From: Shimia aestuarii
Lineage (GTDB): Bacteria > Pseudomonadota > Alphaproteobacteria > Rhodobacterales > Rhodobacteraceae
DNA: 64,000 bases
Reading direction: 5' to 3'
NCBI RefSeq assembly: GCF_022814865.1
Contig: NZ_JAKVRD010000011.1
Span: forward strand, 1 to 64,000
Of this stretch, positions 13,153 through 63,172 are shown in pieces (the stretch's first letter is position 1; every line of letters begins with the position of its first letter). The notes below the pieces were generated by a model. It saw only the letters and a program-made list of their open reading frames with translations, was not told the origin of the DNA and made no database searches. A program made the translations under genes and the position numbers.

Positions 13153-13323
13153 CAGGCCGTCCTCTTCATCTGCGCGGACCCAATCACGCGGGTCGCTCTA
13201 TGCCCTTTGGGCGTAGCTGTCTCGGGAACAGGGCGGGATCGCCCTGCTCGGTGATATCTTTGGTCGTGTCAGACCTTGGGCCGGATATGTCAGGCGGTCA
13301 TCCGGCAACCCGCGGTCCCGTGC

Positions 13324-14142
13324 TTAGCTCAGCCAACGCTTGCGGCGACGATAGGAACGCACATCGCGGAACGACTTGCGGCCCTCGTCGGACATGCCGA
13401 GGTAGAATTCCTTCACGTCCGGGTTCTCGCGCAGTTCGGCAGCGGGGCCGTCCATCACGATACGACCACTTTCAAGAATGTAGCCATAATGCGCATAGCG
13501 CAGCGCGACGTTGGTGTTCTGCTCGGCGAGAAGGAAGGTCACGCCCTCGTTCTCGTTGAGGCTTTTGACGATCCCGAAGATCTCTTCCACGAGCTGCGGC
13601 GCGAGGCCCATCGACGGTTCGTCAAGAAGGATCGTCTCGGGGCGGGACATGAGCGCGCGGCCAATGGCAACCATCTGCTGCTCACCGCCCGAGGTATAGC
13701 CAGCCTGCGATTTGCGGCGTTCGCGCAGGCGGGGGAAATAGTCATAAACCATCTCAAGATCGCGGGCGACCTCGGCGCCGGAGCGGGTATAGGCCCCGGT
13801 CAGCAGGTTTTCTTCAACGGTCAGGTGTTCGAAGCAATGGCGCCCTTCCATGACCTGGATCACGCCTTTCTTCACAAGCCCAGCCGGGTCAAAACCCTCG
13901 AGCTTTTCACCTCGATATTGGATCGAGCCCTTCGTCACCTCACCACGCTCCGATTGAAGCAGGCTGGAGATGGCTTTGAGCGTCGTGGTCTTGCCGGCGC
14001 CGTTGCCGCCGAGAAGCGCGGTGATGCCGCCCTTGGGGACCGAAAGGCTGACACCTTTCAGCACGAGGATCACGTGGTTGTAGATCACCTCGATGTTGTT
14101 GACCTCGAGAAGGGTCTCTTCAGTGTGACCAGCGTCGAGCAT
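13324..14142 (-). CDS. livF: Branched-chain-type ABC transporter ATPase LivF
   Basis: The 272-residue ATPase belongs to the LivF half of HAAT-type importers. Walker A is GGNGAGKTT near residues 45-53, the signature is TSGGEQQMVAIGRAL and Walker B is ETILLDEPSMGL. Residues 250-272 form a basic tail. It partners LivG (17968-18783) under the LivH/LivM permeases. It follows the binding-protein gene by 78 bases that contain a strong stem-loop. Confidence 0.9.
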   Translation of the reverse strand: MLDAGHTEETLLEVNNIEVIYNHVILVLKGVSLSVPKGGITALLGGNGAGKTTTLKAISSLLQSERGEVTKGSIQYRGEKLEGFDPAGLVKKGVIQVMEGRHCFEHLTVEENLLTGAYTRSGAEVARDLEMVYDYFPRLRERRKSQAGYTSGGEQQMVAIGRALMSRPETILLDEPSMGLAPQLVEEIFGIVKSLNENEGVTFLLAEQNTNVALRYAHYGYILESGRIVMDGPAAELRENPDVKEFYLGMSDEGRKSFRDVRSYRRRKRWLS

Positions 14143-14173
14143 GTGCCTTGTCTTTCCTGTCGCGTTTGGGATC

Positions 14174-14200
14174 CCCCGGCCGGATCAGGCCCGGCCGGGG
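14174..14200 (-). other. Strong intercistronic stem-loop between binding protein and livF
   Basis: CCCCGGCCGG pairs perfectly with CCGGCCGGGG across seven bases. No U tract follows on the minus strand, so it looks like an mRNA-stabilising hairpin behind the binding-protein gene rather than a terminator. Confidence 0.65.
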
Positions 14201-14219
14201 AAAAGTCACTACCGTGTGC

Positions 14220-15500
14220 TTACTTGCACTGCGGCTCGATGTTGTTCTCGGAGGCATACGAGGCCGAGTCGGCTTCGATCAGGCCACCGATGACTTCGGT
14301 GTCGGTCGGTTTGAAGTCAGAGATCAGCGACCAGGTCTTGGTGTCCGCGTCCCACTGGGTCACACCAACGAGGCCGGGGCCACCGTGGTTTTCGCAGGAA
14401 ACGTTGAACGCCGGACCAAAGTTCGGCATGCCGAGGGCCGCCATTTTCTCTTCGGTGATCTCGAGGGCTTCCATACCGTCGCGCATCATCGCCGGGGTGA
14501 TGTCCTTGGTGCCGTGGATGTCCATCGCGGTTTTCGCGGCTTCTGCTGCGAGCATCGCGGCATAGAGACCACGGTTGTAGAGGACGTTACCGATCTGATC
14601 GCCAGCACCGGCTGCTTTACCCGTATCGACAACATACTTCTGGATGTCGTCGAAGACCGGGAAGTCGCGGCCAACGTTGTGGAAGGTCAGAGCCTTGTAG
14701 CCATCCGACGCAGCGCCCGAGGGCAGCACGTCATGCTCGGCACCGGACCACCAGATACCGATGAAGTTTTCCATCGGGAAACGGATGTTCGCGGCTTCCT
14801 GAATGGCAACCTGGTTCATCACGCCCCAGCCCCACATCACGACATAGTCGGGACGCTCGCGGCGGATCTGAAGCCACTGCGACTTCTGTTCCTGACCGGG
14901 GTGGTCGACCGGCAGAAGGCTCAGCTCGAAGCCGTGCTTCTTCTGGAGCTCTTCGAGGGTACGGATCGGTTCCTTACCATAGGCCGAGTTGTGATAGACC
15001 AGCGCGATGCGCTTGCCTTCGATGTTGCCATCGTTGGTTTCGAGCAGGTAGTTGATCGCGCCCGAAGCACCGTTCCAGTAGTTCGCCGGATAGTTGAAGG
15101 TGTGGCTGAACACGTCGCCGTTTGCCGCCGAGGTCCGACCATAGCCCATGGTGTGCATCGGGATGTCGTCTGCGGTGGTTTTCGGGATCAGCTGATAGGT
15201 GATGCCGGTCGAAAGCGGCTGATACACCAGAGCGCCTTCGCCCTTGGTCGATTCGTAGCACTCAACGCCTTTTTCGGTGTTGTAGCCGGTTTCACACTCG
15301 ACCATGCGGGTCGGCACACCGTTGATGCCGCCATCACGCTCGTTGAGCAGGGTGAAATAGTCGGCATACCCGTCTGCAAACGGGATACCACCCGCGGCGT
15401 AGGGGCCGGTGCGGTAGCTAAGCGACGTGAACGTCAGGTCAGCCAGCGCAGGGGCTGCGGCCATAACGGCGGCAACTGCAGTGATAATTGTCTTTTTCAT
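14220..15500 (-). CDS. Periplasmic substrate-binding protein of Liv-type ABC importer
   Basis: A 426-residue type-1 periplasmic binding protein. A Sec signal (MKKTIITAVAAVMAAAPALA, cleaved before DLTF) precedes a Leu/Ile/Val-binding fold with TGPYAAGGIPFADGYADYF and RIALVYHNSAYGKEPI. The start at 15500 is set by GGAGG 9 bases upstream; the longer frame to 15647 has no signal peptide. The family also serves aromatic acids, urea and amides, and the accompanying CoA ligases favour a carboxylate. Confidence 0.9.
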   Translation of the reverse strand: MKKTIITAVAAVMAAAPALADLTFTSLSYRTGPYAAGGIPFADGYADYFTLLNERDGGINGVPTRMVECETGYNTEKGVECYESTKGEGALVYQPLSTGITYQLIPKTTADDIPMHTMGYGRTSAANGDVFSHTFNYPANYWNGASGAINYLLETNDGNIEGKRIALVYHNSAYGKEPIRTLEELQKKHGFELSLLPVDHPGQEQKSQWLQIRRERPDYVVMWGWGVMNQVAIQEAANIRFPMENFIGIWWSGAEHDVLPSGAASDGYKALTFHNVGRDFPVFDDIQKYVVDTGKAAGAGDQIGNVLYNRGLYAAMLAAEAAKTAMDIHGTKDITPAMMRDGMEALEITEEKMAALGMPNFGPAFNVSCENHGGPGLVGVTQWDADTKTWSLISDFKPTDTEVIGGLIEADSASYASENNIEPQCK

Positions 15501-58747: not shown

Positions 58748-59863
58748 ATGAGCTACCGCCTCCATATCGGCCCGAACATCCGCAAATCCCCCTATTTCGA
58801 CGCGACCGTGCGCGACGGGGTCGCAACCTTCTCGGTCTACAATCACATGTTCATCCCCGGCAATTTCGGCGACCCGGAGGCCGAATATGACCGCCTCCTG
58901 AACGGTGTCGCCATGTGGGACGTCGCCGCCCAGAGACAGGTCGAGCTTCACGGCCCCGACGCAGGTGCCCTCGCGCAATATCTCACACCCCGCAATCTCG
59001 ACGCGACCAAGGTCGGCCAAGGCCGCTATGTCCCGATCTGCGACCATGACGGCCACCTGATCAACGACCCAGTCCTGCAAAAGCTCTCCGAGGATCGTTA
59101 TTGGCTCTCCATCGCCGACAGTGACCTCCTCCTTTGGGCCAAGGCCATCGCACATGAGCGCGGCCTGAACGTCACGGTGCGCGAACCGGACGTTTCCCCC
59201 CTCGCGATCCAAGGTCCAAAGGCCGAGGACGTGACCGCCGCGCTTCTTGGCGACTGGGTGCGCGACCTCAAGTATTTTTGGTTCCGCGAAGTGATGCTCG
59301 ACGACATGCCGCTCCTCGTCGCCCGCTCTGGCTGGTCAAAACAGGGCGGGTTCGAGCTTTACCTGCGCGACGCCCGCTTCGGCACCGCCCTTTGGGATCG
59401 CGTGAAGGAGGCTGGCGCGCCCTTTGGCATCGGCCCCGGTGCCCCAAACGACATCGAACGCCTCGAAAGCGGGCTGATCTCCTACGGCGCCGACATGCGC
59501 CATCAGACCCACCCCGTCACACCTTTCGAGATGGGCTTTGGCAAGATGCTCGACCTCAATGGCCCGCATGAGTTCGTCGGCAAACCGGCCTTACGCGCCT
59601 TGCGCGAAAGCGGCCAGACCCGCCGCCGCACCGGTCTTGTCCTCGACGGCGCGCCGGTCGCAGGCAATGAACACCCCCTGCCGCTCTTTCACGAGGGCAA
59701 GGAGGTCGGCTTTGCCGCCGAAATCGCCTTCTCCAAACGCCTCAGCAAGAATATCGGCGTTGGCCTCGTCGCTGTTGATCTGCCCACGGGCACAACCGGC
59801 CTCTCCGTCGCGCTTGCAGAAGGCCCTCGAACGGTGACACTGGCCGACCTGCCCTTCGCCTGA
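58748..59863 (+). CDS. DmdA-like GcvT-family protein
   Basis: A 371-residue glycine-cleavage-T-family protein. Blocks such as FSVYNHMFIPGNFGDPEAEY, GVAMWDVAAQRQVELHGPDA, LTPRNLDATKVGQGRYVPI, YWLSIADSDLLLW, EPDVSPLAIQGPKAED and RSGWSKQGGFELY closely follow dimethylsulfoniopropionate demethylase DmdA, which transfers a methyl group from DMSP to tetrahydrofolate. The match is from memory of DmdA and not quantified. It may instead be a DmdA paralogue acting on another methylated compound. AAAAGGAG lies upstream; no dmdB/C/D genes are adjacent. Confidence 0.75.
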   Translation: MSYRLHIGPNIRKSPYFDATVRDGVATFSVYNHMFIPGNFGDPEAEYDRLLNGVAMWDVAAQRQVELHGPDAGALAQYLTPRNLDATKVGQGRYVPICDHDGHLINDPVLQKLSEDRYWLSIADSDLLLWAKAIAHERGLNVTVREPDVSPLAIQGPKAEDVTAALLGDWVRDLKYFWFREVMLDDMPLLVARSGWSKQGGFELYLRDARFGTALWDRVKEAGAPFGIGPGAPNDIERLESGLISYGADMRHQTHPVTPFEMGFGKMLDLNGPHEFVGKPALRALRESGQTRRRTGLVLDGAPVAGNEHPLPLFHEGKEVGFAAEIAFSKRLSKNIGVGLVAVDLPTGTTGLSVALAEGPRTVTLADLPFA

Positions 59864-59952: not shown

Positions 59953-61071
59953 ATGAAAAAAGCCCTGATAACCGGCGTCACAGGTCAGGATGGCTCTTAC
60001 CTTGCCGAATTCCTGCTCGAGAAAGGCTACGAGGTCCACGGGATCAAGCGCCGCGCCTCCTCGTTCAACACCCAGCGGATCGACCACATCTTCCAAGACC
60101 CGCACACGACCAATGCCCGGCTCAAGCTGCACTACGGCGATCTCACCGATAGCTCGAACCTGACCCGCATCCTGCAAGAGGTGCAGCCAGACGAGGTCTA
60201 TAACCTCGCCGCCCAGAGCCACGTCGCTGTGAGCTTTGAAAGCCCCGAATATACCGCCGACGTGGACGCCACCGGCACGCTGCGCCTACTCGAAGCGATC
60301 CGCTTTCTCGGTCTCGAGAAAAAGACCCGCTTCTATCAGGCCTCGACCTCCGAACTCTACGGTCTCGTGCAGGAAATCCCACAGACCGAAACCACCCCCT
60401 TCCACCCACGTAGCCCCTACGCAGTGGCCAAGATGTATGCCTATTGGATCACGGTGAACTACCGCGAGGCCTATGGCATGTATGCCTGCAACGGCATCCT
60501 CTTCAATCACGAGTCCCCCCGCCGCGGCGAGACATTCGTGACCCGCAAGATCACCCGCGGCCTCGCCAATATCGCCCAAGGGCTCGAGCCCTGCCTCTAC
60601 ATGGGCAATATCGACGCCCTGCGCGATTGGGGCCACGCCAAGGATTACGTCCGCATGCAGTGGATGATGCTGCAACAGGAGACACCGGACGACTTCGTGA
60701 TCGCCACGGGCGTGCAATATTCCGTCCGCCAGTTCATCGAATGGACGGCGGCCGAGCTTGGCATCAAAGTCCGCTTCGAAGGCGAAGGGCTTGAGGAAAT
60801 CGGCATCGTCGAAGCGATCGAGGGCGACGACGCCCCCGCGCTCTCCGTCGGCGACGTGATCCTGCGCATCGACCCGCGCTATTTCCGTCCCGCAGAGGTC
60901 GAGACCCTTCTCGGAGACCCCTCCAAGGCCAAGGCCAAACTTGGCTGGACCCCGGAAATCACCGTGCAGGAAATGTGCGCCGAGATGGTCGCCCATGACC
61001 TCAAGAACGCCCGCCGCACCCGCCTTCTGCGCGAGCACGGCCTCGAACTCCCGGTCTCAACGGAAAGCTGA
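59953..61071 (+). CDS. gmd: GDP-mannose 4,6-dehydratase
   Basis: A 372-residue short-chain dehydrogenase converting GDP-D-mannose to GDP-4-keto-6-deoxymannose. The NADP motif is [15 protein letters not shown], the catalytic Ser/Thr is in [10 protein letters not shown] and the YxxxK pair in [28 protein letters not shown] is a Gmd signature. Start at 59953, preceded by GAGGAC; an ATG 15 bases earlier is possible. It heads the sugar-nucleotide operon. Confidence 0.95.
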
Positions 61072-61076
61072 TCACC

Positions 61077-62009
61077 ATGGCCAAGCAAACCCTGCTCCTC
61101 ACGGGCGGTTCCGGCATGGTCGGGCGCAACATACTCGAACATCCCTCAGCATCAGAGTGGACGATCCTCGCCCCCGCCTCGCGCGAACTGGACCTGACGG
61201 ATGCCGGGGCCGTTTCCGCCTATGTAGAGACACATAAACCCGACCTCGTGATCCACGCCGCCGGTCAGGTCGGTGGGATTCAGGCCAACATGGCCCACCC
61301 CGTCGCCTTTCTCGAACGCAACACGGCGATGGGCCGCAATATCATCATGGCCGCCTACCAATCCGGTGTGCGCAACCTTCTAAACCTCGCCTCGACCTGT
61401 ATGTATCCCCGCGCCGCCGCAAACCCGCTGCGCGAAGAGATGATCCTCACGGGCGAGCTGGAGCCGACCAACGAGGGCTATGCGCTGGCCAAGATCATGG
61501 CGACACGCCTCTGCCAATATATCCGCCGCGAGGATGAAACCGCGCAATACAAGACGCTCATCCCCTGCAACCTCTATGGTCGCCACGACAAGTTCGACCC
61601 GAAACACTCGCACCTCCTGCCCGCCATCATCCACAAGGTCCACCTCGCCAAGCAGAACGGCGAAAAGACCGTCGAAATCTGGGGCGATGGCACGGCGCGG
61701 CGCGAATTCATGTATGCGGGCGATCTGGCCGACGCGGTGATGAAGGCCGCCGCCGATCTCGACGCCCTGCCCGAGCTGATGAATTGCGGCCTAGGCCATG
61801 ACCACACGATCAACGCCTATTACGAGACCGTCGCCGATGTGATCGGCTGGGACGGAGAGTTCACCCATGATCTCTCCAAACCCGTCGGCATGAAGCAAAA
61901 ACTCTGCGCCACCGACCGACAGGACGGCTGGGGCTGGAGCGCGCCGACCTCGCTCCGCGACGGCATCAAGACCACCTATGATTTCTATCTGAACGAGGCC
62001 ACGAAATGA
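61077..62009 (+). CDS. GDP-fucose synthase / possible GDP-colitose synthase (Fcl/ColC)
   Basis: A 310-residue epimerase-reductase of the Fcl family. NADP motif LLTGGSGMVGRNIL; catalytic residues Ser106, Cys108, Tyr135 and Lys139 (STCMYP, GYALAK) align with Fcl. It acts on the product of Gmd, giving GDP-L-fucose, or, as ColC, on the ColD product, giving GDP-L-colitose. The neighbouring ColD-like gene makes the second option attractive; the two families cannot be separated by eye. Its stop overlaps the next ATG by four bases. Confidence 0.88.
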   Translation: MAKQTLLLTGGSGMVGRNILEHPSASEWTILAPASRELDLTDAGAVSAYVETHKPDLVIHAAGQVGGIQANMAHPVAFLERNTAMGRNIIMAAYQSGVRNLLNLASTCMYPRAAANPLREEMILTGELEPTNEGYALAKIMATRLCQYIRREDETAQYKTLIPCNLYGRHDKFDPKHSHLLPAIIHKVHLAKQNGEKTVEIWGDGTARREFMYAGDLADAVMKAAADLDALPELMNCGLGHDHTINAYYETVADVIGWDGEFTHDLSKPVGMKQKLCATDRQDGWGWSAPTSLRDGIKTTYDFYLNEATK

Positions 62010-63172
62010 GCTTTCGCTTCCCGCTTGCCACCTCTTCCTGGGACCAGAAAGAGCTCGACGCGCTGCAACGTGTGATCGCCTCCGATCGCTACTCCATGGG
62101 TGATGAGGTGGCCGAGTTCGAACGCCGATTTGCCGCGTATTTCGGCTCTAAATATGCGGTTATGGTCAATTCCGGTTCCTCCGCGAACCTGCTGATGACC
62201 GCCGCGCTGGCCTATACCAAGAACCCCGCGCTCAAGCTCGCGCCCGGCGACGAAATCATCGTCCCCGCCGTAAGCTGGCCGACGACCTACTACCCGCTCA
62301 ACCAATACGGGCTGCACCTCAAATTCGTCGATATCGACCTCGAGACACTGAACTATGATCTCGCCGCACTCGAAGAGGCGGTCACCGACAAGACCCGCGC
62401 CATCATGGTCGTGAACCTGCTTGGCAACCCGAATGATTTCGACGCCATCACCCGTATCATCGACGGGCGCGACATCGTCGTGATCGAGGACAACTGTGAA
62501 TCCATGGGCGCGACGCTCGGTGGCAAACAGGCCGGAACCTTCGGCGTCATGGGCACCTATTCCTGCTTCTTCTCGCACCATATCTCGACCATGGAAGGCG
62601 GCATGGTCGTGACGGATGACGAGGAGCTTTACCACGTCATGCTCGTTCTGCGCGCCCACGGCTGGACCCGCAACCTCCCCAAGTTCAACCACGTCACCGG
62701 CGAGAAATCCGACGATCCCTTCGAGGAGAGCTTCCGCTTCGTCCTGCCCGGCTACAACCTGCGCCCGCTCGAGATGTCAGGCGCGCTCGGCATTGCCCAG
62801 CTTGAAAAGCTCCCCGCCCTGATCGAAGGCCGTCGCGCCAATGGCGCCCTCGTGCAACAGCGCCTTTCCGGCCATCCGAAATTCATGATCCAGAAGGAAA
62901 TCGGCAACTCAAGCTGGTTCGGTTTCTCCCTCGTGATCCGTCCCGAGGCGGGCCTGAAACGCGCCGATCTGGTCAAGGAATTGATCGAGACAGGCTTTGA
63001 ATGTCGCCCCATCGTCGGCGGCAACTTTGCCAAGAACGACGTGATGCAATACTTCGACTATTCCATTCACGCAGAGTTAAAGAATGCCGACTACATCGAC
63101 GCCAATGGCCTCTTCGTCGGCAACCACCACTACCCGATTGCCGACGCCGTGGACGCCCTCGCCGCGCTCTAA
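62006..63172 (+). CDS. ColD-like PLP-dependent sugar 3-dehydratase
   Basis: A 388-residue protein of the DegT/DnrJ/EryC1/StrS fold. The PLP region has NSGSSANLLMTAAL and IEDNCESMGATLGG. The position of the Schiff-base lysine (pattern SFxxxK) is His191 in CFFSHHISTMEGGM, as in GDP-4-keto-6-deoxymannose 3-dehydratase ColD and in RfbH, where the His acts as base for C3 deoxygenation instead of transamination. With Gmd upstream, the substrate is most likely GDP-4-keto-6-deoxymannose. It ends by overlapping the converging thiQ gene by three bases. Confidence 0.83.
   Translation: MSFRFPLATSSWDQKELDALQRVIASDRYSMGDEVAEFERRFAAYFGSKYAVMVNSGSSANLLMTAALAYTKNPALKLAPGDEIIVPAVSWPTTYYPLNQYGLHLKFVDIDLETLNYDLAALEEAVTDKTRAIMVVNLLGNPNDFDAITRIIDGRDIVVIEDNCESMGATLGGKQAGTFGVMGTYSCFFSHHISTMEGGMVVTDDEELYHVMLVLRAHGWTRNLPKFNHVTGEKSDDPFEESFRFVLPGYNLRPLEMSGALGIAQLEKLPALIEGRRANGALVQQRLSGHPKFMIQKEIGNSSWFGFSLVIRPEAGLKRADLVKELIETGFECRPIVGGNFAKNDVMQYFDYSIHAELKNADYIDANGLFVGNHHYPIADAVDALAAL

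Follow-up and report, generated by a model that had tools for sequence, protein, structure and literature searches.

We suggest that three adjacent genes in the window (the whole stretch of 64,000 nucleotides of Shimia aestuarii DNA analysed here) very probably form a gmd-colC-colD cassette for the synthesis of GDP-L-colitose (Table 1). An earlier note on this DNA had proposed this pathway on the basis of (i) an HHIST motif, aligned with ColD/RfbH, at the site where the DegT family of aminotransferases carries Lys, (ii) a gmd gene upstream, and (iii) an Fcl/ColC-type gene coupled to the DegT gene. All three observations are borne out, and the pathway proposal is supported by scores and identity to ColD, the placement of ColC in a tree, residues at diagnostic columns and gene order. 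The enzymes of colitose synthesis are of known kinds and their chemistry is known.

Table 1. Coordinates of the cassette genes and of two sites within them
Feature	Position	Strand	Basis
gmd, GDP-mannose 4,6-dehydratase, 377 aa	59938..61071	+	TIGR01472, 590.7 bits (cut-off 415)
colC, putative GDP-L-colitose synthase (C5-epimerase/C4-reductase); reads as Fcl	61077..62009	+	identity, 13 columns, tree, Fcl-model score
ATGA shared by the colC stop and the colD start	62006..62009	+	sequence; translational coupling inferred
colD, putative GDP-4-keto-6-deoxymannose 3-dehydratase (PMP/PLP, DegT fold), 388 aa	62006..63172	+	PDB ColD matches, 62-64% identity to E. coli ColD
His191 codon, equivalent of ColD His188, in place of the aminotransferase Lys	62576..62578	+	alignment, sequence

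The DegT-fold protein resembles ColD

In a PDB search, the top match of the window ColD is E. coli ColD 2gms (8e-165, 551 bits), and the ColD entries 2gms, 3b8x, 2r0t and 3gr9 all score 546-552 bits; RfbH follows at 205 bits, 346 bits behind, and the perosamine synthases at 131 bits. Identity to the ColD proteins of E. coli O55, O111 and PSS-12 amounts to 62.1, 63.4 and 62.9%, respectively, over 385 positions. Judged by these scores, the match to ColD is far beyond chance. The first His of the motif HHISTME is residue 191 of the protein and falls on the column of His188 of E. coli O55 ColD in a MAFFT alignment, for which 108 of 119 rows were kept after removal of those outside 330-480 aa or identical. 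His occupies this column in all 90 strong ColD rows, defined by more than 300 bits to the window ColD, and the 18 weaker DegT rows have Lys in 11 cases and His in seven, one of the latter, from locus L039, being RfbH by its NCBIfam score. The four DegT paralogues that the window ColD finds in its own genome all have Lys.

These residues bear on the idea that a Lys-independent aminotransferase serves the synthesis of perosamine or another 4-aminosugar. The fold is shared between the two kinds of enzyme and, according to a review, crystal 3B8X shows GDP-perosamine bound to a ColD variant altered at His188 (PMC8987622). Yet the same review records no transferase activity of ColD under the conditions tested (PMC8987622), and with His for Lys throughout the strong ColD rows and just 131 bits to perosamine synthase we regard this idea as extremely improbable. 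As to residue 188 of 3B8X, a legend in that review gives Lys (PMC8987622), the deposited 3b8x sequence has Asn, and the Lys variant is 2r0t.

It is equally hard to credit that the protein is an RfbH-like CDP-hexose 3-dehydratase of the abequose, paratose or tyvelose type. The RfbH model NF011936 is its best NCBIfam match (276 bits), no ColD model being present among the 25 NCBIfam families matched, and RfbH too has His at the site. However, 276 bits lies below the cut-off of 423, as does the score of E. coli O55 ColD (263 bits), whereas the RfbH of locus L039, which is 34% identical to the window ColD, reaches 726 bits. Moreover, the window protein has Cys at positions 164, 187 and 333 only and is without the [2Fe-2S] cysteine cluster seen in the L039 RfbH, and the neighbouring genes are GDP-sugar genes. 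In total, scores, identity and residues support an assignment of this protein nearest to His-type ColD and not to the Lys aminotransferases or RfbH.

The reductase groups with ColC against Fcl

The window ColC is 50-52% identical to three E. coli ColC proteins and 37% identical to E. coli Fcl. According to an alternative explanation, the window encodes a GDP-L-fucose pathway consisting of gmd and Fcl, with a DegT gene that is unrelated or acts on another sugar. This explanation draws on the best PDB match of the window ColC, a GDP-L-fucose synthase, on its score of 306 bits with the model NF047922 for GDP-L-fucose synthase, and on catalytic residues common to Fcl and ColC: Ser107, Cys109, Tyr136, Lys140 and His179 of E. 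coli Fcl, which we take to be the SDR triad and the epimerase Cys and His, are conserved in 111 of 111 rows, including all 90 on the ColC side. The score of 306 bits, however, is below the cut-off of 500 and on a par with that of E. coli O55 and O111 ColC (304 and 311 bits), whereas E. coli K-12 Fcl and an Fcl of the family (L112) score 553 and 513 bits.

The tree of Fcl/ColC proteins points in the same direction. We kept 112 of 125 rows, dropping those outside 290-345 aa or identical. From these, 64 were hand-picked for an IQ-TREE analysis, without the long-branch rows L105, L106, L107, L072, L085 and L091_17156m, and assigned beforehand to one side or the other according to whether ColD is encoded at the same locus. 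The analysis placed 43 rows on the ColC side, the window protein and the three E. coli ColC proteins among them, and split them with support 100/100 from 21 Fcl rows, namely E. coli K-12 Fcl and 20 rows of the family. A quick tree of all 112 rows agrees (SH-aLRT 100 for the Fcl clade); it contains L091_17156m as a very long stray branch and one ColC-side row without ColD in its locus (L106). In the 111 rows used for residue counts (21 Fcl and 90 ColC, L091_17156m left out), 13 columns separate the two groups, with a fixation of at least 90% in each; the window protein agrees with ColC at 13 of 13 of them and the three E. coli ColC proteins do so at 12. Given this split and these columns, we consider the fucose pathway very unlikely. 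On scores, residues and the ColC/Fcl tree, we thus reject the fucose, perosamine synthase and RfbH readings.

Alternatively, the product may be a 3,6-dideoxy sugar other than colitose, made by a reductase that has drifted in its specificity at C4/C5. An identity of only 50-52% to E. coli ColC would allow for this, but the tested catalytic residues and the 13 of 13 separating columns fit the ColC group, and we consider such a product very unlikely. In the genome of the L106 row (G209, of the family), gmd lies beside a ColC-type gene and there is no ColD match at 1e-10; ColC alone is therefore no proof of colitose. Gene loss, an assembly gap or another use of ColC are candidate explanations for this pair.

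Gene order, surroundings and supply of GDP-mannose

gmd lies directly upstream of colC, the start of which is 5 bases past the gmd stop; gmd may instead start at an in-frame ATG at 59953. The four-base overlap of colC and colD may give rise to translational coupling of the two genes. The cassette has a DmdA-like gene on one side and thiQ on the other, lies downstream of gyrB and is not within a polysaccharide cluster, a location that counts against the colitose reading. In the window, we name gyrB, dnaA, dnaN and recF by their sequences. We also looked for signs that the cassette is a recent foreign insert: the three genes (GC 0.595-0.617, GC3 0.79-0.80) resemble the flanking genes (GC 0.619-0.668, GC3 0.78-0.81), and composition is thus no sign of recent insertion. 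The DmdA-like/GcvT-like protein encoded upstream (58748-59863) scores 367 bits on a DMSP demethylase model, below the cut-off of 410, and G210, the only further genome sampled from the genus, has as its best match a protein just 44% identical.

The source assembly comprises 3.97 Mb in 70 contigs (completeness 99.99). It contains one gmd (E<=1e-30) and one ColC/Fcl-type gene (E<=1e-10), with no second gmd or fcl at these thresholds. Hence, no separate GDP-fucose synthase was found, which also speaks against the fucose pathway. A single GMP/PMI enzyme (ManC; 577 bits, cut-off 373) is encoded elsewhere in the genome, near genes for UDP-galactopyranose mutase, an ABC ATPase, a GT2 and a Stealth protein. 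The phosphomannomutase of this genome is likely, by sequence, to be a PGM/PMM-family protein on C5; the best score of that protein, 273.7 bits against a cut-off of 600, is under the cut-offs of the curated PMM models and counts against the colitose reading.

The cassette is widespread

The gmd-colC-colD cassette is widespread. Among 202 candidate loci of the genome_contigs collection that encode a relative, we tallied the neighbourhoods of the 80 best. In 79 of these 80, colC lies at most 150 bases upstream of colD, a further argument against the fucose pathway, and 75 contain the full gmd-colC-colD run, the exceptions being L041, L053, L073, L084 and L093; in several of the 75, gmd is partial and reaches the contig end (e.g. 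L014, L046, L069, L087). The 80 best loci belong to Alphaproteobacteria (47), Betaproteobacteria (16), Gammaproteobacteria (6), Bdellovibrionia (4), Flavobacteriia (3), an Epsilonproteobacterium (1) and others (3), with shares that lean toward relatives of the window because only the best 80 matches were kept. The earlier note had expected a 3,6-dideoxyhexose to be unusual in this group of bacteria. At the gene level this expectation is weakened, as 40 of the 80 best loci of 202 are from Rhodobacterales, 39 of them with the full run; yet of the 295 species sampled from the family, ColD (E<=1e-100) was found in only nine, counting that of the window. G210, from the same genus, yielded neither ColD at E<=1e-100 nor a ColC/Fcl match at 1e-50.

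Cohaesibacter marisflavi (L016) belongs to another order, but its cassette proteins are 85-90% identical to those of the window (ColD 86%), and its ColC groups with the window ColC in the quick 112-row tree (SH-aLRT 94). This closeness across orders suggests horizontal transfer of the cassette. In DNA searches of E. coli genomes, the window colD gave no match, and the colD of Tenacibaculum matched 86 of 5426.

Of the 80 best loci of 202, 29 have manC in the fetched flanks, 19 have GT11 and six have FkbM. Seven loci (L039, at 13163-14329, L042, L043, L045, L048, L074 and L091) have a second His-type DegT gene with a PAHHI motif in the flanks of colD. As NCBIfam identifies the one in L039 as RfbH, two different dideoxy sugars may be made by such clusters.

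A candidate module for transfer of colitose

The window's genome encodes one GT11 protein (C2:240054-240905 in G000; PF01531, 98 bits, cut-off 23.9), which has no PDB match at 1e-3. It is 34% identical to the product of the gene annotated as alpha-1,2-fucosyltransferase in the E. coli O55 locus, which we take to be WbgN. Two papers describe O55 WbgN as an alpha-1,2-colitosyltransferase that can use GDP-fucose as well (PMC12723683; PMC12409901). Far from the cassette, the GT11 gene forms a divergent pair with an FkbM methyltransferase gene (G000 C2:240054-241710, i.e. L131 8055-9711). Such pairs, less than 400 bases apart, occur in five genomes, all of which have ColD (G000, G100, G055, G174 and G036); in G036 the GT11 gene starts 27 bases past colD, and in G174 a stop lies inside the GT11 frame.

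Within the family, GT11 (E<=1e-20) is present in seven of nine ColD genomes and in 36 of 286 others (Fisher p 2.6e-5), and FkbM (E<=1e-30) in seven of nine and six of 286 (p 1.7e-9); both tests ignore shared ancestry, and the genes and thresholds were picked after the linkage had been seen. GT11 is also present elsewhere. Among genomes without ColD it occurs in 24 of 94 with Fcl and in 12 of 192 with neither (p 1.3e-5), the pattern expected of a fucosyltransferase; 12 of 43 GT11 genomes have neither a ColD nor an Fcl-type match (1e-50), and the ColD genomes G120 and G129 gave no GT11 or FkbM match. GT11 may therefore use another donor in some genomes. Of the 19 cassette loci with GT11 in their flanks, four are from Rhodobacterales.

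Combining these data, we suggest that the WbgN-type GT11 and the adjoining FkbM protein are a candidate colitosyltransferase module, the co-occurrence of which with ColD is new here. It is possible, if rather doubtful, that a branch of the Rhodobacterales displays O-methylated L-colitose on a surface glycan and that the parts of this system may lie apart in the genome: gmd-colC-colD, a WbgN-like GT11, and a divergent FkbM that would cap the sugar or its acceptor.

Proposed pathway and comparison with known systems

In the pathway that we favor, gmd, colC and colD would be transcribed as one operon and convert GDP-D-mannose, supplied by the GMP/PMI enzyme, to GDP-L-colitose. Gmd would form GDP-4-keto-6-deoxymannose. 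ColC would act last, epimerising C5 and reducing C4 to give GDP-L-colitose, reactions that Alam et al. reportedly described in 2004. In the intervening step, ColD would bind PMP, His191 would act as base and acid so that the C3 hydroxyl is expelled to yield GDP-4-keto-3,6-dideoxymannose, and glutamate would regenerate PMP, in line with the ColD mechanism given in a review (PMC8987622). Transfer of colitose to a surface glycan would follow, possibly with the GT11 protein as the enzyme.

Reports of colitose exist for Vibrio cholerae O139 and Aeromonas trota (PMC3210612), Pseudoalteromonas carrageenovora (PMC4052302) and Colwellia psychrerythraea (PMC8914368), and an account of a verrucomicrobial endosymbiont describes its ColC and ColD genes (PMC8204192). 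Another study surveyed 12,939 genomes for the L-colitose pathway and notes its absence in TACK archaea (PMC7725333), wording that suggests a wide spread of the pathway. In a search of titles and abstract openings, confined largely to papers outside subscription, we found no report of colitose from Rhodobacterales.

The earlier note had also held that the pathway could be missed because the genes read as a fucose pathway. This is plausible: besides the lack of a ColD model among the matched NCBIfam families, RefSeq names mislead, with E. coli O111 ColD called "DegT/DnrJ/EryC1/StrS family aminotransferase" and O55 ColC "GDP-L-fucose synthase family protein". With colC and colD annotated as fucose synthase and aminotransferase, genome reading may credit fucose to probable makers of colitose. 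The His site together with the 13 ColC/Fcl columns provides a simple test that corrects this annotation trap. Colitose can be sought directly in the cassette-bearing strains Shimia thalassica, Roseovarius nubinhibens and Paracoccus denitrificans, and the data also point to the candidate transferase.

The window enzymes have relatives with related but distinct functions. RfbH (E1) shares with the window ColD the DegT fold and His at the catalytic site and, according to the review, differs in its CDP-sugar substrate and iron-sulphur cysteines (PMC8987622). Similarly, Fcl has the fold and the tested catalytic residues in common with the window ColC, but lies on the opposite side of the 100/100 branch and differs at the 13 fixed columns. 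E. coli O55 and O111 share with the window the three enzymes Gmd, ColC and ColD, the catalytic His, the ColC-type residues, and a colC that immediately precedes colD and overlaps it by 4 bases. In these strains, however, gmd is not contiguous with colC and the genes are inside or adjacent to the O-antigen cluster (manC, manB, wzx, wzy, glycosyltransferases), whereas in the window gmd and colC are contiguous and the cassette is set apart, with gyrB and thiQ as neighbours. The gmd-colC-colD order of the window is that of the cassettes in Shimia, Roseovarius, Paracoccus, Cohaesibacter marisflavi and others, and thiQ follows colD, as it does in the window, in just two of the 80 best loci of 202, those of the nearest MAG (L014) and of Shimia thalassica (L015).
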